NCBI GenBank assembly: GCA_017416345.1 | Contig: JAFQCR010000001.1 | Span: forward strand, 47,605 to 111,604 | Length of the DNA stretch: 64,000 nucleotides | Source: Clostridia bacterium | GTDB taxonomy: Bacteria; Bacillota; Clostridia; Oscillospirales; Acutalibacteraceae | Direction: 5' to 3' | Shown: piece after piece, positions 48,602 through 62,718 of the stretch | Position numbering within the stretch: position 1 is the first letter of the stretch | Layout: every line of letters begins with the position of its first letter | The notes under the pieces: model-generated | What the model saw: the letters and a program-made list of their open reading frames with translations, nothing else | What the model was told of the DNA's origin: nothing | Database searches by the model: none | Made by a program: the position numbers and the translations under genes

Positions 48602-50206
48602 TTATTTTTTAAACAGCCTCTTGATTGCTTTGATGATCTTTCTGAGCTGTTCGGTCTTGTTGAAGAATATCATTCCGAAGAAGATGAGCGCTATAAGAAG
48701 CGCAAGCCCGATGATGACGGCCAGAATAATGATGATGACCTTCAAAACGGTCATTGCGGCCGAGGATTCCTCCTTGGGGGCTTCGTCTTTTTCGGTGACC
48801 AGCATAAACTGCGAGCACTCATCGGTTTCGACCGAAACGGTACCGCCGGTTACCACCGTTTTGTAGCAGGCAATGGAGCCGTTGGCCATCTGCTGATAAA
48901 CGGCAAACTCCTTGCCCTCGTATTTTCCGTCTACGGGGATAGCTACGGTAAGATCACCGTCAAAGCCGTTGTTGGTGAAAACTATGTCATAGCTCGAAAC
49001 TATCTTGCCCCAGCTTGTGCCGTTGGCCAAAGCGGTGTAGACCTCACTCTGAGGGTCAAGCGCCGTTACCTTAACGGTAGCGGTGCTGTCAAAATGTCCC
49101 GAGATCTTTATCGAGGTTGCAGGGTCCTTGACCTCTGCATACGAGAAGTTGGAAATGGTAAGTGTGCCGTCTTGGAAGGTTACCGTGTAATTGTCACCAA
49201 ACGACAGAGTTCCGCGGGTGACAGCATAGGTGCCGACCCCGTTGCCCGACTCACGTGCGAGCGAACCGATGACCTTGTTGCCGTCGATAAGCTCCTCGGA
49301 CAGAGTGTAGGTCAGCTTGGGCTCATCCTGTCCCAAGGTCATAACAAGCTTGTCGGCCGTAACGGTCAAGGGGCGGGGAGTGACATTGCCCTTGACCTCA
49401 AATTTATCGGTCACAAGGGTGTATTTGTCGGCATCCTTACCGCCGAGCTTCAGTCCGCTTACGGTTATCTTGGAGGCTTTTTTCACATCGGCAGAGTTGT
49501 ACTCGGCCTTCTCAAAGGTGAGCGTTACCTCGTGACCCTCGGCAACACCCAAAAGCTTGTAATTCTTGTCGGTAACGGCGGCGGTCAGCTTGCCGTCGTA
49601 TACCTTTGTAAGAGCCTCACAGCCCTCGGTCGTGACCTTTATTTCGACGGCCTTGGTGCAATCGACCTTTACGGTCTGGCCAAAGGCAAAAGCATCAAAG
49701 CTTTCGTCGTCATAAAGCTCACCGTTTTTGAATATCTCGGTCTTAACGCTGCCGCCGTGGAAAAAGTATACGTGTACCTCCAATGTCGGGATAACTGCAC
49801 CCTTTATGTTACAGCTTTTCAGCTTGATGTTATAAAACACTCCGCCCTGCTTTATCTTTTCGGGGAAGGGGTAGGCCGCTTTTCCGTCGGCAGAATCCTT
49901 GGTTTTAACAACAAAATCGGCAATGGCTGTTTCGGTTCCCGGGACGGCAATGTCGTCAATGTCGCTCATTATAAGCTCGGCCTCAGAAACGCCGAAAACA
50001 AACTCTGCATCGGCAGGAACCTTGCCTTCAACAAGGCATTCCAGCGTCAGCGAATACTCCTCGGGGAGGTCGCTTTCGTTGTTAAGCTCAAAAAATGTGA
50101 TGGGATGGTTGCTCTCAAGTTCGGTCTCGGTGGCCATGGCACACATCGGTACGGTCGCCAGAAGCAACGCAAGGATAAGCGAAATTATGTATCGGGTCTT
50201 GCTCAT
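48602..50206 (-). CDS. Surface protein with YDG and MBG-type domains, C-terminal anchor
   Basis: 534 residues. Signal peptide (cleavage after CAMA, about residue 26), an N-terminal beta domain (about 30-190), a YDG domain opening with TKVYDGKLTAAVT, an MBG-type domain from RPLTVTADKLVMTLGQDEPKLTYTL, a further beta module (about 370-475), an acidic spacer, one membrane helix (VLKVIIIILAVIIGLALLIALIFF) and a basic tail (LRKIIKAIKRLFKK). Such proteins are adhesins or wall-facing stalks. The start ATG follows AAGGAG with nine bases; the TTG three codons earlier touches the binding site. Ligand unknown. Confidence 0.82.
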   Translation of the reverse strand: MSKTRYIISLILALLLATVPMCAMATETELESNHPITFFELNNESDLPEEYSLTLECLVEGKVPADAEFVFGVSEAELIMSDIDDIAVPGTETAIADFVVKTKDSADGKAAYPFPEKIKQGGVFYNIKLKSCNIKGAVIPTLEVHVYFFHGGSVKTEIFKNGELYDDESFDAFAFGQTVKVDCTKAVEIKVTTEGCEALTKVYDGKLTAAVTDKNYKLLGVAEGHEVTLTFEKAEYNSADVKKASKITVSGLKLGGKDADKYTLVTDKFEVKGNVTPRPLTVTADKLVMTLGQDEPKLTYTLSEELIDGNKVIGSLARESGNGVGTYAVTRGTLSFGDNYTVTFQDGTLTISNFSYAEVKDPATSIKISGHFDSTATVKVTALDPQSEVYTALANGTSWGKIVSSYDIVFTNNGFDGDLTVAIPVDGKYEGKEFAVYQQMANGSIACYKTVVTGGTVSVETDECSQFMLVTEKDEAPKEESSAAMTVLKVIIIILAVIIGLALLIALIFFGMIFFNKTEQLRKIIKAIKRLFKK

Positions 50207-50265
50207 TGGTGTCAACTCCTTAAATAAACTTATAAAAATGAACTGATATTTTTTTCGGTCTGTAC

Positions 50266-51255: not shown

Positions 51256-51279
51256 ATTTGTAATAAAACTCAACAATTG

Positions 51280-51308
51280 TTGACATATTGTGATATAGGA
51301 TTTATAAT
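51280..51308 (+). promoter_or_regulatory. Consensus promoter of the AAA+/M41 gene
   Basis: TTGACA (51280-51285), 17-base spacer, TATAAT (51303-51308). Perfect hexamers. This location fixes the gene start downstream. Confidence 0.92.
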
Positions 51309-51357
51309 ATTACTATGTATTTACGGAATGATACCGTCATTTAAAGGGGGAATTGTT

Positions 51358-54300
51358 TTGGCAATATATGCGAACAGCCTTGCGCTGAGCAAGTATATGT
51401 CTTACATAGAGAATATTGATATCAAAACCAAGTTCAAGCCGACCCTGGAAGGCTTTATGGTTGCCGCTATCGACGATGCCTTGGGCAACATTTACCTCAA
51501 AAGTGAATCGACCGAAAAGGTCAAAGCGCTTTTGACCGCTTTCGGTGTTGACCTCAAGGTTGCACGTGAAAAGCTTGTACAGCATATGTCGACCTATGAT
51601 TATGTACTTGAGGATACCGAAAAGATCAAGGAGCTCAAGCGCAAGATCAGGGATGATGAAAAGTACTTGAGCGCTGAGGAATTTTTGCCCGAAATGCTGG
51701 TCGAGCGCATTTTCAGTGAGCCTACCGATGCCATAAAAAATGCTTTTTCATCGCCCAAGACCGAAGCCGATTCCAAAAAGGATGAAATTGAGGCGGCTTT
51801 GGATGACCTTTTAAAGAAAAAGCCCACCGCCGATCCCGATACACCCTCAGAGGGTGACGGTAAGCCAAAGGTGGCCGCCGCACCTATTGAGGTGCTGCCC
51901 GATGAGGTCGAGCCTATGGAGCCCAAGCAGTTTTTGAACGACCTTACCGTTAAGGTCAAAAATATGCGAAAAGAGCTGTCCGACCGTGTTTTCGGTCAGG
52001 ATAATGCCATCAATATTTTTGCAACGGGTTATTTTCAGGCCGAGCTTTTGTCTTTGACCGACAAAGCACGTCAAAAGCCCAAGGCAACCTTTTTGTTTGC
52101 AGGCCCTCCCGGTACCGGTAAGACCTACCTTGCCGAAAATATTGCCGAGCTTTTAGGTCTGCCTTTCTGCCGCTTTGATATGAGCGAATATGCCGACAAG
52201 GAGGCTTGTATCGAGTTTGCAGGCTCGGATAAGGTCTACAAAAACGGTAAAGCAGGTAACGTTACCTCCTTTGTTGAACAAAATCCCCGATGCGTTGTGC
52301 TGTTTGATGAAATAGAAAAGGCGCATATAACGGTCATACATCTGTTCCTGCAGTTGTTGGATGCAGGCCGTTTGCGTGATAACTACACCGATAACGAGAT
52401 ATCCTTCAAGGATGTCGTGGTGATATTCACAACCAATGCAGGCAAGCAGTTTTACGATAACGATGTCCGTACCGATTACAGCGGCGTTTCCCGTAAAGTT
52501 ATCTTAAAGGCACTTGAAAAGGATGTCAATCCGGGAACGGGCACTCCGCTTTTCCCTGCGGCGATCTGCTCACGCTTTGCCACCGGTAATGTGGTCATGT
52601 TCAACCACATTTCGGCGCACAACCTGCGTAATATTGCCAAGCGTGAGGTCTTGCGCCACGCTGATAATTTTGAAAAAGAAATAGGTATAAAGGTCAATAT
52701 AGATGAGCGTGTTTTCAGCGCACTTCTGTTTGCCGAGGGCGGTGCCGCCGATGCCAGAACTGTGCGTGCCCGTGCCGAGAGCTTCTTTGATGATGAGATG
52801 TTCGAGCTGTTCCGCCTGGTTTCTTCGGAAAGCGTGACCAGCGGTATTGCCGAGCTTCAGACCGTAAATATCGGCATAGACCTGCCTCAGAACGCTCCCG
52901 AGGTCATGGCGCTGTTCCAAACCGCCGAAAAGCCTAATGTTATGGTGTTCTGCTCCGATGAGACCCTGCAGACCTGCAGCAGTAAAACTGCGGAATGCAA
53001 CTTCATTTCGGTAAAAAGTATTCCCGAGGCCGAGGCGGCGCTCGACAAAAACGAGATAAAGGTCGTTCTTATAGACCTCGATTTCGGTGAAAAACGGTCG
53101 TCCGAGGATTACCTTAACATTGAGGATATCGACTCCGAGGCGAGGGATATTTTCAAGCATATCCGTGAGTACCATGCCGATCTTCCGGTTTATCTTCTTG
53201 AAACCGAGTCGCACAAGTACTGCCACGAGGAAAAGGTCTCCTTTATCCGCCAGGGTGTGAGGGATGTCATTGCACTGAACGGCACCGAAGAGGATTTCGG
53301 AAAAGAGATATCCGAGATCTGCGGCAAGATCCACCAGCAGCAGAATATGCTGTCGCTGGCCAAATCCAACCGTCTGGTGACCTTCGGTACGGCACAGCGT
53401 CTGTGTGACGGCGGGGCTACTGCCGAAATAAGGCTGTTTGACTTAAGGCTCAATGTTGCGCTTGACCCCGACGATTCCAAAAACGTGCTCAGCAACGTTT
53501 CCAAGCCCAAGGTCAAGTTCTCCGATGTCATCGGTGCCGAGGATGCCAAAAAAGAGCTGGAATACTTTGTTCAGTACCTCAAAAATCCTAAAAAATATGC
53601 CGCTACGGGCGTAAGACCGCCCAAGGGTATTTTGCTTTACGGTCCTCCGGGAACGGGTAAGACCATGCTTGCCAAGGCGCTGGCAGGTGAGACCGATGTT
53701 ACCTTCATCACGTCCGAGGGCAACCGCTTTTTGAAGCGCTATGTGGGTGACGGACCTCAGTCGGTGCACGATCTTTTTGCCACCGCAAGAAAGTATGCAC
53801 CCTCAATACTGTTTATCGATGAGATAGATGCCATTGCCAAGGAACGCAACGGCTCGGATCACAGCGCCCCGCGTGAAGAGGTGCTGACCGCCTTTTTGAC
53901 CGAGATGGACGGCTTCAAAAACGATGTGTTAAAGCCCGTTTTTGTGTTGGCCGCCACTAATTTCGAGGTTGAAGAGGGTACCGCCAAGAGCCTTGACTCT
54001 GCTTTAATGCGCCGTTTTGACCGCCGCATCTTTATCGACCTTCCCGACAGAGACGACCGTGTGAAGTATATAAAATCGCAAATAGCCCGCAAGGAAATTT
54101 TTGCCGTGAGCGACAGTATGATAGAAAATATCGCCATCCGCTCGACCGGAATGAGCCTTGCTTCGCTTGAATCGGTCATCGAGCTTGCGCTTCGCTCGGC
54201 CATACGTGAGGGCAAGACGCAGGTCTCGGATGTTGACTTTGAGGAAGCCTTCGAGCTGTTCAACAGCGGCGATAAAAAGGAGTGGGATGCCTCACTTTTG

Positions 54301-54822
54301 GAGCGTACCGCACGCCACGAGGCAGGTCACGCATTCCTTTGCTGGCAGGCAGGCGAAAAGCCGTCTTATGTAACGGTAGTGGCAAGGTCAAACCACGGCG
54401 GTTATATGCAGCACGGCGACCGTGAGGGTATGAACGTCCGCACCAAGGACGGTCTGCTTTCCAGAATACGCACAGCGCTTGGCGGACGTGCCGCAGAGCT
54501 GGTGTATTACGGTGAAAGAGAAGGTCTTGCAACGGGTGCTTCGGGCGATCTTCGAACCGCTACCGCAGTTGCGCGCAGCATAGTTTGCACCTACGGTATG
54601 GACGAGGAATTCGGCCTTGCCGTGGTCGACCGTGAGGCCACGTCCGACGGTGAGCTGTCCTTGGCCGTGAGAGCCGCTGTCAACCGAATTCTGGACAGCG
54701 AAATGAAAAAGGCCGTGGAGCTTATCTCGGCCAACCGTGATAAGATCGACCGCCTTGTTGAGGCACTTATTTTGAAAAACCGTCTTACGGGTGATGAGAT
54801 CGATGAGATCTTTAAACTATAA
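51358..54822 (+). CDS. Clp-like AAA+ / receiver-like / FtsH-like AAA+ M41 protease fusion
   Basis: 1154 residues. The start is TTG seven bases after GGGGG; anything longer would cross the promoter. Order: helical N-terminus with an acidic linker (1-190); Clp-type AAA+ (about 200-480, Walker A GPPGTGKT 249-256, Walker B VVLFDEIEKAH with D317/E318); a receiver-like alpha/beta domain (about 525-660, VVLIDLDFG with D573/D575); then an FtsH-like AAA+ (about 720-970, Walker A 762-769, D821/E822, pore-loop region RFLKRYVGDG) and an M41 metallopeptidase (HEAGH 987-991, third ligand in GASGDL about 1064). The FtsH membrane helices are absent, so the protease should be soluble. FtsH normally has 600-700 residues. 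A zinc-ribbon membrane protein follows 22 bases on. Confidence 0.88.
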   Translation: MAIYANSLALSKYMSYIENIDIKTKFKPTLEGFMVAAIDDALGNIYLKSESTEKVKALLTAFGVDLKVAREKLVQHMSTYDYVLEDTEKIKELKRKIRDDEKYLSAEEFLPEMLVERIFSEPTDAIKNAFSSPKTEADSKKDEIEAALDDLLKKKPTADPDTPSEGDGKPKVAAAPIEVLPDEVEPMEPKQFLNDLTVKVKNMRKELSDRVFGQDNAINIFATGYFQAELLSLTDKARQKPKATFLFAGPPGTGKTYLAENIAELLGLPFCRFDMSEYADKEACIEFAGSDKVYKNGKAGNVTSFVEQNPRCVVLFDEIEKAHITVIHLFLQLLDAGRLRDNYTDNEISFKDVVVIFTTNAGKQFYDNDVRTDYSGVSRKVILKALEKDVNPGTGTPLFPAAICSRFATGNVVMFNHISAHNLRNIAKREVLRHADNFEKEIGIKVNIDERVFSALLFAEGGAADARTVRARAESFFDDEMFELFRLVSSESVTSGIAELQTVNIGIDLPQNAPEVMALFQTAEKPNVMVFCSDETLQTCSSKTAECNFISVKSIPEAEAALDKNEIKVVLIDLDFGEKRSSEDYLNIEDIDSEARDIFKHIREYHADLPVYLLETESHKYCHEEKVSFIRQGVRDVIALNGTEEDFGKEISEICGKIHQQQNMLSLAKSNRLVTFGTAQRLCDGGATAEIRLFDLRLNVALDPDDSKNVLSNVSKPKVKFSDVIGAEDAKKELEYFVQYLKNPKKYAATGVRPPKGILLYGPPGTGKTMLAKALAGETDVTFITSEGNRFLKRYVGDGPQSVHDLFATARKYAPSILFIDEIDAIAKERNGSDHSAPREEVLTAFLTEMDGFKNDVLKPVFVLAATNFEVEEGTAKSLDSALMRRFDRRIFIDLPDRDDRVKYIKSQIARKEIFAVSDSMIENIAIRSTGMSLASLESVIELALRSAIREGKTQVSDVDFEEAFELFNSGDKKEWDASLLERTARHEAGHAFLCWQAGEKPSYVTVVARSNHGGYMQHGDREGMNVRTKDGLLSRIRTALGGRAAELVYYGEREGLATGASGDLRTATAVARSIVCTYGMDEEFGLAVVDREATSDGELSLAVRAAVNRILDSEMKKAVELISANRDKIDRLVEALILKNRLTGDEIDEIFKL

Positions 54823-54843: not shown

Positions 54844-55464
54844 ATGAAAAAATGTAATAATTGCGGAACACAGGTGCAGGATAACGATCTGTACTGTCCC
54901 AACTGCGGTTCGCCCGATTTTTCGGCGTTGCCTACGATGAACGGTCAGCCGGTCGATGTTAACGGCCAGCCTATCCCTATGGCACCCGAGTATCAGCCCG
55001 AGCCCGATAACGGCATTGTCGATAACGGCAACGTTGGTATGGGAATCGTCGGTGCAGCACTGCTTTCTCTGGCAGGCGTTGTGCTGTATTTCATCATTTA
55101 CCAGATCGGATATGTTGCCGGTATCTGCGGCTTTGTTATGTTCACTTTGGCAACGCTCGGTTATAATAAATTCGCCAAGCCGCAGACAAAGAATCCTATG
55201 CTCGGTATAATTATTGCAGCGGTCGTAACGATCGTAATGCTGTTTGTTGCCGAGTACATCTCGATGGCCTACGCACTTTATGACGGCTTCCGGGAGCTGG
55301 GCTATACCCAGGTCGGCTTCTTTGATGTTTTAAAGAATATGCCCGATTTCCTTTCGGATTCCGAAGTGATGAGCGGTCTTGTAGAGGATCTGATCTTTGC
55401 GTATGTATTTGCTGTTGCCAACATCGCAATAAGCATCTTCAGCGCCAGAAAGAAGGCAAAATAG
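54844..55464 (+). CDS. Zinc-ribbon membrane protein
   Basis: 206 residues. N-terminal zinc ribbon (CNNCGTQVQDNDLYCPNCG, two CxxC), a Pro/Gln/Asn linker, then about four hydrophobic helices (about 66-88, 90-105, 120-140, 180-198). Start ATG after GAGGAGAG, 22 bases after the AAA+/M41 gene, so in one operon. It could tether or feed the soluble protease at the membrane; that is inference from position only. Confidence 0.8.
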   Translation: MKKCNNCGTQVQDNDLYCPNCGSPDFSALPTMNGQPVDVNGQPIPMAPEYQPEPDNGIVDNGNVGMGIVGAALLSLAGVVLYFIIYQIGYVAGICGFVMFTLATLGYNKFAKPQTKNPMLGIIIAAVVTIVMLFVAEYISMAYALYDGFRELGYTQVGFFDVLKNMPDFLSDSEVMSGLVEDLIFAYVFAVANIAISIFSARKKAK

Positions 55465-56773: not shown

Positions 56774-59053
56774 ATGGAAATATTATCTGCCACCGTATCC
56801 GATATTACCGAAGCGGAAAAGCTCAACAGCGGTATAAGACATAAACAGCTTGAAGAATACCTCCGCCACGGACGAGCCTATGTTTTAAAGGACAGAGGAC
56901 AAACCGTAGGTCTGCTTTGCTATGGCTTTTTCAAGATGAGCATTCCTTATCTTGAGCACTTGTTTATTGATGAGAGCTTTCGCAAACAAGGTCTCGGTCT
57001 GAAGCTGATAACCAAATGGGAGCAGGAAATGTACACCTTGGGGCATAAATATTTGATGGCAGGTACCCAAACCGACAGCACAGCGTGGAGATTTCTTGAA
57101 AAGTGCGGTTATCAGAAGGCAGGCAGCTTCCTTTTGCCCGACCGCTACTATTATGACTTGGTATATGTCAAAACAGTTCAGCCGCAAGTGACTAAAGAAG
57201 AGCCTAAAGATGTAATAACGGATGATAAACACAGAGTGCTGAAGGAATACTTTGGCTATTCTAACTTCAGAAACGGCCAAGCCGAGCTGGTAGATGCTCA
57301 GCTGAACGGCCGTGACGTATTCGGAATAATGCCAACGGGCGGCGGAAAAAGCCTTTGTTATCAGATCCCTGCGTTGCTTTCATCAGGCGTTACGTTGGTC
57401 GTGTCACCGCTTATCTCGTTGATGAAGGACCAGGTCGCCGCATTAAAAACCGCAGGTGTTGCGGCGGCGTATATCAATTCGTCGCTTTCTGTAGAGCAGA
57501 TCGGGTCTGTTTTGCAAAAAATGCTTGCCGGAAAGTATAAGATCATATACATAGCACCCGAAAGGCTGATGACAAAAAGCTTTCTTGAGGTCGTACGTAA
57601 AATTAAGATATCAATAGTTGCTGTGGATGAGGCGCATTGTATTTCCCAATGGGGTCAGGATTTCAGACCGAGCTATTTGAAGATAGTCGACTTCCTTAAC
57701 GTGTTACCCAAAAGGCCCGTTGTTGCCGCCTTCACCGCAACCGCAACCGGGCAGGTACGTGATGATGTGATACGGATATTGGATCTTCACGAGCCGTTCT
57801 GCGTGGTCACGGGCTTCGACCGTCCGAATCTGCGTTTTGAGGTTATGGCTCCGAAAAATAAGCCCGCAACCTTGTATCAACTTATCACCGCCCGCTCCGA
57901 CAAAGGCGGTATAGTCTACTGTTCGACCCGAAAAGAGGTCGAAAGAGTGTGTGATACTCTTTGTGAAAACGGATTTTCGGCAACGAGATACCACGCAGGA
58001 CTGACTGAGGAGGAGCGTGCACAGAATCAGGATGATTTTATATACGACCGTAAAAGTGTAATGGTCGCCACCAACGCTTTTGGAATGGGTATAGATAAAT
58101 CGAATGTTTCGTATGTAATACACTATAATATGCCCAAAAGTATGGAGGCATATTACCAAGAGGCAGGCCGTGCAGGCCGTGACGGTGAGCCTGCGGAATG
58201 TATTTTGCTGTACTCTGCCGGGGATATACAAACAGCCAAGTTTTTGATAATGCAAACCTCGGAAAACGATGAGCTGACCGAAGAGCAACGGCAGGAGGTC
58301 ATAAGTAAGGACCTCGAGCGGTTGGATAAAATGATAGGGTACTGCAGAACAGTTAACTGTTTACGAGGTTATATCCTTGATTATTTCGGTCAAAAGCAAA
58401 AAGGCTCCTGCGGCAATTGCGGAAACTGCTCGGTCACAACAAAACGTGTGGATATCACGACCGAAGCGCAGATGATACTTTCGTGTGTGCGCCGTATTCA
58501 CGACCGTCTTGGGTATTATGTTGGCGAGACGGTGGTCGTACAAGTGCTTCGCGGCAGCACCGAAAAGCGCATATTACAATACGAACTTGAAAAGCTGTCA
58601 ACATATGGGCTTATGAAGAATATCCCTCGGGACGATGTAAAAGAGATGGTTTTGAGCCTTAAACTGCAAGGGTATCTGATAGTTGACTCCAAGTACGGCG
58701 GGCTTAAAACGACCTCAAAAGCCGATGAGGTGCTGTTTTGTGGCGAAAGCGTAAGAATGGCCTCCAAGAAATATGGCATCACACATGCTGCAAAGCCAAA
58801 AAAGAATACCAAACAGACCGCCGTATCTGATGCAAGTCTGTTTGAGGTGCTGAAAGAGCTTCGTGGGGCGATCGCTTCTAAACACAGTCTGCCGGCCTAT
58901 GTTGTGTTTTCCAACGCTACGTTACAGGATATGGCCGCACGCAAGCCAACAACGGTTACCGAGTTTTTAGAGGTCTCGGGAGTGGGTGAGCACAAGGCTC
59001 AAAAATACGGTAAGCTGTTTACCGACGAGATCAAAAAGTACTTAAAGCATTAA
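56774..59053 (+). CDS. recQ: RecQ-family DNA helicase with an N-terminal GNAT domain
   Basis: 759 residues in one open frame. Residues 1-135 form a GNAT domain (LEHLFIDESFRKQGLGLKLI has the RKQGLG acetyl-CoA loop; STAWRFLEKCGYQ is the last motif). From about 150 a full RecQ: YFGYSNFRNGQAELV, Walker A PTGGGKS (T188-S193), DEAH 285-288 with CISQWGQDFRPSY, motif VI QEAGRAGRDG, RQC zinc Cys (CLRGYILDYF, CGNCGNC), winged helix and a C-terminal HRDC domain (VFSNATLQDMAARKP, last 75 residues). RecQ unwinds 3'-5' in repair and recombination. The fused acetyltransferase is unusual. Start ATG after GGGGAGG. Confidence 0.92.
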   Translation: MEILSATVSDITEAEKLNSGIRHKQLEEYLRHGRAYVLKDRGQTVGLLCYGFFKMSIPYLEHLFIDESFRKQGLGLKLITKWEQEMYTLGHKYLMAGTQTDSTAWRFLEKCGYQKAGSFLLPDRYYYDLVYVKTVQPQVTKEEPKDVITDDKHRVLKEYFGYSNFRNGQAELVDAQLNGRDVFGIMPTGGGKSLCYQIPALLSSGVTLVVSPLISLMKDQVAALKTAGVAAAYINSSLSVEQIGSVLQKMLAGKYKIIYIAPERLMTKSFLEVVRKIKISIVAVDEAHCISQWGQDFRPSYLKIVDFLNVLPKRPVVAAFTATATGQVRDDVIRILDLHEPFCVVTGFDRPNLRFEVMAPKNKPATLYQLITARSDKGGIVYCSTRKEVERVCDTLCENGFSATRYHAGLTEEERAQNQDDFIYDRKSVMVATNAFGMGIDKSNVSYVIHYNMPKSMEAYYQEAGRAGRDGEPAECILLYSAGDIQTAKFLIMQTSENDELTEEQRQEVISKDLERLDKMIGYCRTVNCLRGYILDYFGQKQKGSCGNCGNCSVTTKRVDITTEAQMILSCVRRIHDRLGYYVGETVVVQVLRGSTEKRILQYELEKLSTYGLMKNIPRDDVKEMVLSLKLQGYLIVDSKYGGLKTTSKADEVLFCGESVRMASKKYGITHAAKPKKNTKQTAVSDASLFEVLKELRGAIASKHSLPAYVVFSNATLQDMAARKPTTVTEFLEVSGVGEHKAQKYGKLFTDEIKKYLKH

Positions 59054-61590: not shown

Positions 61591-62718
61591 ATGCAAATCA
61601 ATTTAGAGCGTTTCCGCAAATATTTAGATGGCTTTAAAATGTATGTGGAAATGATGTCTGAAACAGCTTTACTTGATCTACAAGCAAATAAGTTTTTCAT
61701 GAGCCAAGAAGGATATAAACATAGTATTTATAATAAAGCGCAAAGCATCCTTGATTATAAGAATTGGAGCACTGCCGATATTGGCACGGGAAGCATTTCA
61801 AGAAAAGTGAATTTAGCTATTAATGCATCCGAAAATCTGGTATTCAAACAACAACGCATTCACTTTAAAAACAAAATTAATGATAACCCTAAATTAGCAG
61901 AACAAGTATTATATAACATTTACTGTTCAAACAAAGATTCCGAATCGTTTGATGAAGCAGTGAATTTTTTTGGCGGGAAGTACGATTTGATTGCTTATCT
62001 CTTTTTTATTAAAGATGATCAAAAATACTTGCCGATAAGTTCATCGAATTTTGACAAGCGTTTTGCGTTGTTAAATATTCCTCTCAAAACATCGAGAAAC
62101 TGTTCAAGTTCCAATTACTTTGCGTTCATTAACTGTATTGAACAACTAAGAAAGCTTATGGAAGCGCACTACGGTTTTAATATATCTCTTCTTGATTCTC
62201 ATTCTGTGATTTGGCAATTGACTTTAGCTGATGAGTTCGTGTCACAAATGGAAGAGAAAAATGCAGATGCACTTCTCTCAAATGAAGTTAACGATTTGAT
62301 CCATCAAAAAGGGTTTCAAGCAAGCGGTTATTCTGGCAAACCTAAAAAACAAGCTACGCCTATTCACACAAATGGGCATAAAGTATATCCGAGAAATCGC
62401 TTCGCTGCTTTGAATGCACTATTTATTGCAAATAACACATGTGAGATTGAATCTTCGCATAAAAGTTTTATTAGAAAAAATTCGGATGTGAAATATATGG
62501 AACCGCATCATTTGGTCCCTATGGCACATTCGGATAAATTTTCGGTTTCTTTGGATGTTGAGGAAAATATTATATGTCTTTGCAGTAATTGTCACAACGA
62601 AATTCATTACGGAAAAAATGCAAAAGAACTTATTGCTCAACTTTATGAAAAGAGGAAAGATATGCTTAAAAGAGTAGGCATAAATATCTCTCTTGAAGAG
62701 TTGCTGTTAATGTATTGA
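61591..62718 (+). CDS. HNH endonuclease domain protein, AT-rich
   Basis: 375 residues. The N-terminal 250 are not recognised (helical, ALLDLQANKFFMSQEGYKHS; possibly a DNA recognition part). The C-terminus is an HNH nuclease of McrA type: MEPHHLVPM (HH), ENIICLCSNCHNEIHYG with CxxC and the last His. Start ATG ten bases after CGGAGG. The gene is much more AT-rich than its neighbours and has no methyltransferase beside it, which would fit a modification-dependent restriction enzyme or other defence nuclease acquired by transfer. Own promoter and terminator. Confidence 0.82.
   Translation: MQINLERFRKYLDGFKMYVEMMSETALLDLQANKFFMSQEGYKHSIYNKAQSILDYKNWSTADIGTGSISRKVNLAINASENLVFKQQRIHFKNKINDNPKLAEQVLYNIYCSNKDSESFDEAVNFFGGKYDLIAYLFFIKDDQKYLPISSSNFDKRFALLNIPLKTSRNCSSSNYFAFINCIEQLRKLMEAHYGFNISLLDSHSVIWQLTLADEFVSQMEEKNADALLSNEVNDLIHQKGFQASGYSGKPKKQATPIHTNGHKVYPRNRFAALNALFIANNTCEIESSHKSFIRKNSDVKYMEPHHLVPMAHSDKFSVSLDVEENIICLCSNCHNEIHYGKNAKELIAQLYEKRKDMLKRVGINISLEELLLMY

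Follow-up and report, generated by a model that had tools for sequence, protein, structure and literature searches.

AAA+ proteases come in several described arrangements: FtsH is a membrane enzyme, and Clp unfoldases work with a separate ClpP peptidase, to which they dock through an IGF/IGL-type loop. Control by a receiver domain is exemplified by RssB, an adaptor of ClpXP that is phosphorylated at Asp58 and has a conserved Lys108 (available part of PMC7226468). In the FtsH ternary MoxR-vWA conflict systems, as described in the accessible part of PMC7159879, a single protein is built from two FtsH-type modules, the first of which has neither P-loop nor Walker B. The gene described here, located at positions 51358–54822 (+ strand) of a 64,000-nucleotide stretch of the genome of a gut-type Clostridia bacterium (the window; part of contig C15 of a 2.47 Mb genome that is 96.32% complete), encodes a Clp-type AAA+ module, a receiver-like domain and an FtsH-type AAA module with M41 protease in a single chain.

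The frame starts with a TTG at 51358, ends with the stop at 54822 and is open across all 1,154 residues, and a likely ribosome-binding site (AAAGGGGG, 51343–51350, +) can be read directly from the sequence 7 bases 5' of the start. In the alignment introduced below, a Met is found at the start column in 16 of 25 distinct rows, and within two columns of it in 20 of 25. Pfam matches cover AAA_2 at residues 240–372 (expect value (E) 3.2e-36), AAA at 758–894 (8.7e-53) and Peptidase_M41 at 983–1151 (2.9e-29), while NCBIfam gives a ClpA-type match at 177–456 and an FtsH_fam match at 707–1148, the latter at 357.9 bits, which does not reach the equivalog cut-off of 600. The first-pass annotation had proposed exactly such a frame, with two AAA+ modules of different ancestry, and the open frame and these matches confirm it; of the four families it named for a search, Response_reg alone was not among the 25 listed of 58 Pfam families. 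The first AAA+ module (residues 199–480, 51952–52797, +) is of the AAA_2 D2 type, with Walker A and B intact in 25 of 25 rows, and a pattern search of its ClpP-loop region found no IGF/IGL-like tripeptide in any of 26 rows, the positive control of this search on the genome's own ClpC not having worked. The FtsH-type AAA module and M41 protease (residues 707–1151, 53476–54810, +) contain the zinc-binding and catalytic HEAGH motif (987–991, 54316–54330) and the third zinc ligand D1064 (54547–54549), and an aromatic-x-Gly pore loop is present in 18 of 25 rows. Apart from the fusion, the same genome has one FtsH-type gene, with a frame of 641 residues, as well as two Clp-type genes of 793 and 832 residues, so that the fusion is an additional protein of its genome. 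The architecture is well supported by these comparisons, and from it we infer the function proposed below.

Relatives were collected by a genome-contig scan and from genus and family genomes, giving an alignment of 26 rows, 25 of them distinct, nearly all from metagenome-assembled genomes or genomes without a species name. Since L029, L053 and L016 come from a single genome, and L023 and L065 are the same locus, the duplicates were excluded from the 25 rows as well as from the 27 loci used for the neighbourhood analysis, which include the truncated L019 and exclude L025, L026, L027 and L037. The contig scan alone yielded 21 loci, namely 19 Clostridia-type metagenome-assembled genomes, Tractidigestivibacter scatoligenes and a Scardovia with the FtsH half only. 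All 25 distinct relatives, one of which is T. scatoligenes strain SK9K4 (Actinomycetota), keep the domain order, Walker A and Walker B of both modules, R885 and R886 (two Arg of the second AAA module), HE[AS]GH and D1064; the M41 active site reported earlier is hence conserved throughout. An assembly artefact joining separate genes was ruled out because the order recurs in 25 distinct sequences, including the SK9K4 contig, with motifs kept and a ratio of nonsynonymous to synonymous substitutions (dN/dS) of 0.12 in a close pair. In this pair (L009/L010, 89% identical; dN 0.056, dS 0.469), purifying selection acts on the entire chain, most weakly on the N-terminus (dN/dS values of 0.058/0.438 for the receiver, 0.026/0.453 for the Clp AAA module, 0.043/0.519 for FtsH-M41 and 0.130/0.389 for the N-terminus).

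The absence of N-terminal membrane helices and the solubility of the M41 protease, both proposed in the first-pass annotation, agree with a maximal 19-residue hydropathy of at most 1.41 in 25 of 25 distinct rows, i.e. no transmembrane-like stretch. The usual limit for such a stretch is 1.6. A membrane FtsH with a missed N-terminus was also considered, as the in-frame upstream stretch (51277–51357) is hydrophobic, yet it was rejected because most relatives begin at this column or close to it, and 1.41 is not exceeded within the first 100 residues of any of them.

The N-terminal approximately 138 residues (51358–51771, +), which had been left undescribed, can tentatively be assigned as a diverged Clp N-domain. 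The best PDB matches of a profile of this region (A7) were the N-domains of ClpC2 (E 0.0066), ClpA (0.017) and Hsp104 (0.047), with unrelated ones ranking lower. Similarly, when the 5,247 frames of 199 loci were searched, many of these loci having been retrieved for Clp motifs, 14 of the 17 non-fusion matches (E up to 1) were Clp-type by eye, two being identical; 13 fusion-gene pieces and the truncated relative L037 had been removed by eye. Pfam Clp_N matched two of 22 members, with a best E of 0.079. In the Tractidigestivibacter relative (L024:7272-8200), an RNase H domain (1.6e-8) lies in the N-terminal region that is Clp N-domain-like in the others.

Between the two modules, residues 505–672 (52870–53373, +) are receiver-like, as supported by several profile comparisons. 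In a single hhalign comparison with seven receivers of the same genome, the probability was 80.9% (E 1.3e-5) and D573 (53074–53076, +) was placed opposite the phospho-Asp. Controls with Clp-N, CARF, nuclease and YbjN alignments and five column shuffles gave at most 1.1%, the Clp-N control being a poor template in which one of the two sequences is without a Clp N-domain; CARF as the identity of the middle domain, at 0.2%, was rejected. A PDB search with the middle-domain profile returned 20 sequences (E up to 10), 14 of them response or NtrC-type regulators by name, with a best E of 0.024 and none significant singly, and the two best non-fusion frames in the 5,247-frame search were receivers, one at E 0.0078 and the other, identified by eye, at 0.081. 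Pfam scans of single members (E up to 1) matched OKR_DC_1_N in 10 of 25 (best E 0.002) and Response_reg in seven of 25 (best 0.0039), the only families to match more than one member in this region; in L008, the member shown in full, Response_reg scored 18 bits, below the gathering score of 30.2.

Regarding the signal, the invariance of D573 in 25 of 25 rows, together with its position opposite the receiver phospho-Asp and a Thr or Ser at the end of strand 4 in 16 of 25, would suit a phospho-regulated protease in which a histidine kinase or a small phosphodonor phosphorylates D573 and thereby turns degradation on, in two-component style. Other parts of the site are at odds with such chemistry. 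After strand 1, the rows do not share an acidic pair (Asp/Glu in 7/25 rows at column 533 and 11/25 at column 534, with Asp in 6 and 4, respectively), Lys occurs in at most one of 25 rows in any column of the strand-5 region (637–643), and a conserved NIEDxDSxAR loop lies C-terminal of the Asp. Ordinary phosphorylation of the domain is unlikely because the acidic pair and Lys are not kept, despite the invariant D573, and two-component-style regulation appears improbable. The domain, in which D590, P610 and G633 are likewise invariant, is probably a pseudo-receiver. The earlier proposal of a receiver-like domain with D573 or D575 as candidate phospho-Asp is supported as far as the domain is concerned; of the two aspartates D573 is the invariant one, D575 being kept in two of 25 rows, and the idea of a phosphorylation input is weakened.

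The distribution of the fusion, for which a genome survey had been suggested, is sporadic and mainly in Clostridia. It was found in nine of 300 family genomes (8/135 genera) and two of four genus genomes at E up to 1e-100, and in three of 398 phylum genomes at 1e-120, the own genome being counted each time. In the tree, the copy of the genus-mate G002 joins that of G066, from another genus (support 100/100), and not the window copy, the position of which is not resolved; distribution and tree together suit lateral transfer, or an old duplication with loss. An origin from phages or plasmids was rejected, as none of the 275 phage and 3,965 plasmid records with a match had a place covering 80% of the query. 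In viral contigs, no match was kept with the single-protein query, and among the best 80 of 579 matches with the alignment query, none has one frame matching both the Clp and M41 parts. The genome of L023 contains a second, apparently broken fusion copy (L026:3712-5483; frames of 278 and 314 residues).

When the genes around the 27 distinct loci were clustered together with those of 25 comparison stretches, three neighbour families recurred: CARF/Card1-like proteins (CARD), TrkA/RyR-type membrane proteins (TrkRyR) and YbjN-like proteins. In a simple longest-frame gene list (frames of at least 90 residues), a gene of one of these families directly adjoins the fusion at 17 of 27 loci and lies within the retrieved stretch at 18, a count that is descriptive because the families were found in the same loci. 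At L052, five same-strand genes follow one another (CARD, TrkRyR, YbjN, YbjN, fusion), and the end of the fusion is overlapped by a CARD frame at L051 and by a TrkRyR frame at L019. CARD proteins have approximately 415 residues, and their profile matches the PDB entries of Can2 (7bdv, 5e-9) and VC1899 (1xmx, 2.3e-8); PADLOC gave CARF4-CARF_PDDEXK at 1.4e-30 over residues 12–414 of 416, and Pfam Card1_endonuc matched at about 1e-5, under the cut-off, in both members scanned as proteins. TrkRyR proteins (590–780 residues) have a hydrophobic N-terminus, a Rossmann-like GxGxxG region, from which the TrkA label was read by eye, and a C-terminal RyR-like stretch; Pfam RyR reached 0.00038 in L049 (below the cut-off), and four others had no match at 0.01. 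The YbjN-like proteins (approximately 155 residues, frequently a tandem pair) are named from one Pfam match (0.0036, below the cut-off), with none in two others.

A more independent measure than adjacency is co-occurrence in the 300 family genomes, although the profiles used (A3 and A5) derive in part from fusion loci, the p values assume independent genomes, and the 300 genomes of all scans are taken as one draw, since every genome listed belonged to the first. TrkRyR was present in seven of the nine genomes with the fusion compared to 20 of the 291 without (p = 7e-7). Among the genomes with a fusion, Card1_endonuc matched in 14 of 28 (one genome appearing twice) and YbjN in 14 of 27. A type III CRISPR (Csm1) context was rejected: Csm1-type Cas10 (TIGR02578) was above cut-off in none of 27 genomes, several of which are incomplete, Cmr2-type models lying outside this search. 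Weak Cas10 matches in 12 of the 27 were confined to parts of the Csm1 profile, and we attribute them to HD or GGDEF-type domains in other proteins.

Several further observations concern the same gene families. Standalone 96-residue RyR-domain proteins are found near the fusion in L021:9824-10114 and L022:11672-11962 (Pfam RyR 4.1e-37 and 6.7e-36), a TIR-TPR-type protein lies near it in L007, and a P-loop NTPase separates TrkRyR and CARD in L050. In L185:5768-14700, a SpoVK/CbbX-type AAA protein sits amid CARD, TrkRyR and YbjN genes in a stretch without the fusion, and could be a possible alternative to it. In the window's own genome, CARD and TrkRyR genes lie side by side on contig C4, apart from the fusion. 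Genes in the same direction there (L049:8555-18999) encode CARD, TrkRyR, a 715-residue ion-channel-like protein (by eye, no Pfam match), an unassigned 684-residue protein, a PP2C phosphatase and a kinase-domain protein, the last with a weak TrkRyR match.

The gene associations bear on another explanation, in which the fusion serves protein quality or the heat-shock response and has no signal dedicated to it, its neighbours being simply frequent in accessory regions of this kind. Both halves do come from protein-quality families, and plasmids of E. coli, Klebsiella and Salmonella carry, according to their annotations, separate clpK and ftsH genes nearby, in regions that we take to be heat-resistance islands. 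Against such a role count, on the other hand, the sporadic occurrence in 9/300 family genomes, the separate FtsH and two other Clp-type genes in the window's genome and the three particular families adjoining the fusion at 17/27 loci, and it seems rather unlikely.

We consider it about an even chance that the chain is a soluble AAA+ protease with two rings and a pseudo-receiver as its gate, acting in stress or defence together with a signalling module of the CARF/RyR type. In the mechanism envisaged, the protease would be a single-chain enzyme of the cytosol, six copies of which probably stack into a hexamer with successive layers: Clp-type docking domains at the N-terminus, an unfoldase ring of Clp D2 type, a receiver-like layer, the FtsH AAA ring and the M41 chamber. 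The N-domain would recruit the substrate, which the first ring would pull through and pass to the FtsH ring, where the protease domain of the same chain would cut it without any need for ClpP or a membrane; the absent ClpP loop and the M41 domain in the chain would fit such self-contained proteolysis. Located between the rings, the receiver-like domain may gate the hand-over by binding a ligand or partner, not by phosphate transfer, and the loss of receiver chemistry with retention of D573 and the NIED loop would fit a switch of this type. The CARF/Card1-like, TrkA/RyR-type and YbjN-like proteins may in turn act as sensors or adaptors in stress or defence signalling, the association with CARF and RyR-type proteins pointing to a nucleotide signal. 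For conflict systems, a prediction exists that receiver domains with no histidine kinase serve as nucleotide-responsive switches (PMC8195603, in its available part). A more specific version, in which the fusion provides the proteolysis in an undescribed defence or stress system that relies on nucleotide signalling and is independent of CRISPR, with CARF/Card1-like and TrkA/RyR-type proteins as sensors and the pseudo-receiver as a nucleotide- or partner-responsive switch between the rings, is possible, if doubtful.

A number of results weigh against a pseudo-receiver-gated protease with these partners. The N-terminus gave 1.0% in hhalign against the N-domain of the genome's own ClpC (shuffles 0.1–0.2%). 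Nine of the 27 loci are without a partner in the retrieved stretch, some of the contigs ending nearby; these nine include L012, where the fusion is masked by a longer antisense frame and which was scored as partnerless after its neighbours had been read by eye. The window copy itself has no CARD, TrkRyR or YbjN neighbour, and its genome no YbjN relative at 1e-5. Co-occurrence was weaker than for TrkRyR in the case of both YbjN (4/9 genomes with the fusion vs 16/291 without, p = 0.0015) and CARD (4/9 vs 29/291, p = 0.010; 6/9 by another scan), the CARD counts being possibly too low, as G289 and G223 matched Card1_endonuc in one scan and not in the co-occurrence scan. Finally, the ExK Glu of CARD is replaced by Ser in 13 of 13 sequences, in which N-E-x-D and K are invariant. 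Since a TsuCan2 E302A/K304A variant served as the inactivated enzyme in the accessible part of the Can2 paper, the CARD nuclease may be dead or altered, and because of the Ser its role as an effector is uncertain.

The same neighbours could also be taken to indicate a machine that, instead of degrading proteins in general, remodels a single effector, e.g. a partner, maturing or releasing it by limited cleavage. Lon-SAVED, a protease activated by cyclic oligoadenylate that cleaves CRISPR-T (PMC9704534, available part), offers a precedent for such logic, and the CARF/Card1-like and TrkA/RyR-type neighbours of the fusion speak for it as well. The two complete AAA+ modules suggest processive unfolding instead, and no candidate substrate was identified, the neighbours not having been searched systematically for toxins; limited cleavage is unlikely in our view.

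Immediately downstream of the fusion, separated by 21 bases, lies a gene for a 206-residue zinc-ribbon protein with hydrophobic stretches (54844–55464, +), which is possibly co-transcribed with it. Its proposed status as a conserved partner was not upheld, as the genes of the 51 other stretches in the comparison included no BLASTP relative (>50 bits and >40% coverage). Further along the window, a RecQ-type helicase (DEAD, Helicase_C, RQC and HRDC) with an N-terminal GNAT acetyltransferase domain is encoded at 56774–59053 (+), for which no match at 1e-100 was obtained in the three other genomes of the genus, and a 375-residue protein at 61591–62718 (+) has a C-terminal HNH endonuclease domain barely above the Pfam cut-off. 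On the other side, 48602–50215 (−) encodes a protein of cell-surface type, which has MBG_2 and YDG domains and is hydrophobic in a C-terminal stretch. The first 2,000 positions, with genes that by eye encode a four-helix-type, an acetyltransferase-like and a membrane protein, have a G+C content of 0.307, compared to 0.417–0.506 in the other 2-kb steps, and were possibly acquired recently.

No description of this architecture or gene set was found in the open-access papers covered, among the matches listed when titles and abstract openings were searched, and the signalling system around the protease is possibly new. If the reading holds, a soluble Clp ring, a receiver-like switch and FtsH-M41 in series would amount to a whole protease machine fused with its regulator, and its recurrent position next to CARF and RyR-type genes would mean that nucleotide signalling has a processive protease among its effectors. 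The fusion would further offer a direct test of whether kinase-less receiver domains are nucleotide-responsive switches, as predicted in the available part of PMC8195603.

Compared with the described systems, the chain resembles FtsH in its FtsH_fam match (707–1148), HE[AS]GH motif, third zinc ligand and pore loop (18/25), and differs from it in being without a transmembrane-like stretch (25/25), in a score below the family cut-off (357.9 vs 600 bits) and in the Clp ring and receiver-like domain placed in front. With ClpA and ClpC it shares an AAA_2 D2-type module with Walker motifs and possibly a diverged Clp N-domain, whereas it has a single Clp AAA module, no IGF/IGL-like tripeptide and an M41 protease of its own joined to it. 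In RssB (PMC7226468, available part), a receiver domain is coupled to an AAA+ protease, as the receiver-like domain is here; RssB is a separate protein, while the fusion carries its domain within the chain and without the lysine and acidic pair. The neighbouring CARD proteins are akin to Can2/Card1 (CARF plus PD-(D/E)xK) through their matches to Can2 7bdv, VC1899 1xmx and CARF4-CARF_PDDEXK, and are set apart by Ser in place of the ExK Glu (13/13) and by genomes in which Csm1-type Cas10 exceeded the cut-off in 0/27 cases. The FtsH protein of the MoxR-vWA systems, in the accessible part of PMC7159879, also combines two AAA modules, of which the second is of FtsH type and active, and belongs to a conflict-type gene set; the first module of the fusion, in contrast, is of Clp type, with Walker motifs intact in 25/25.

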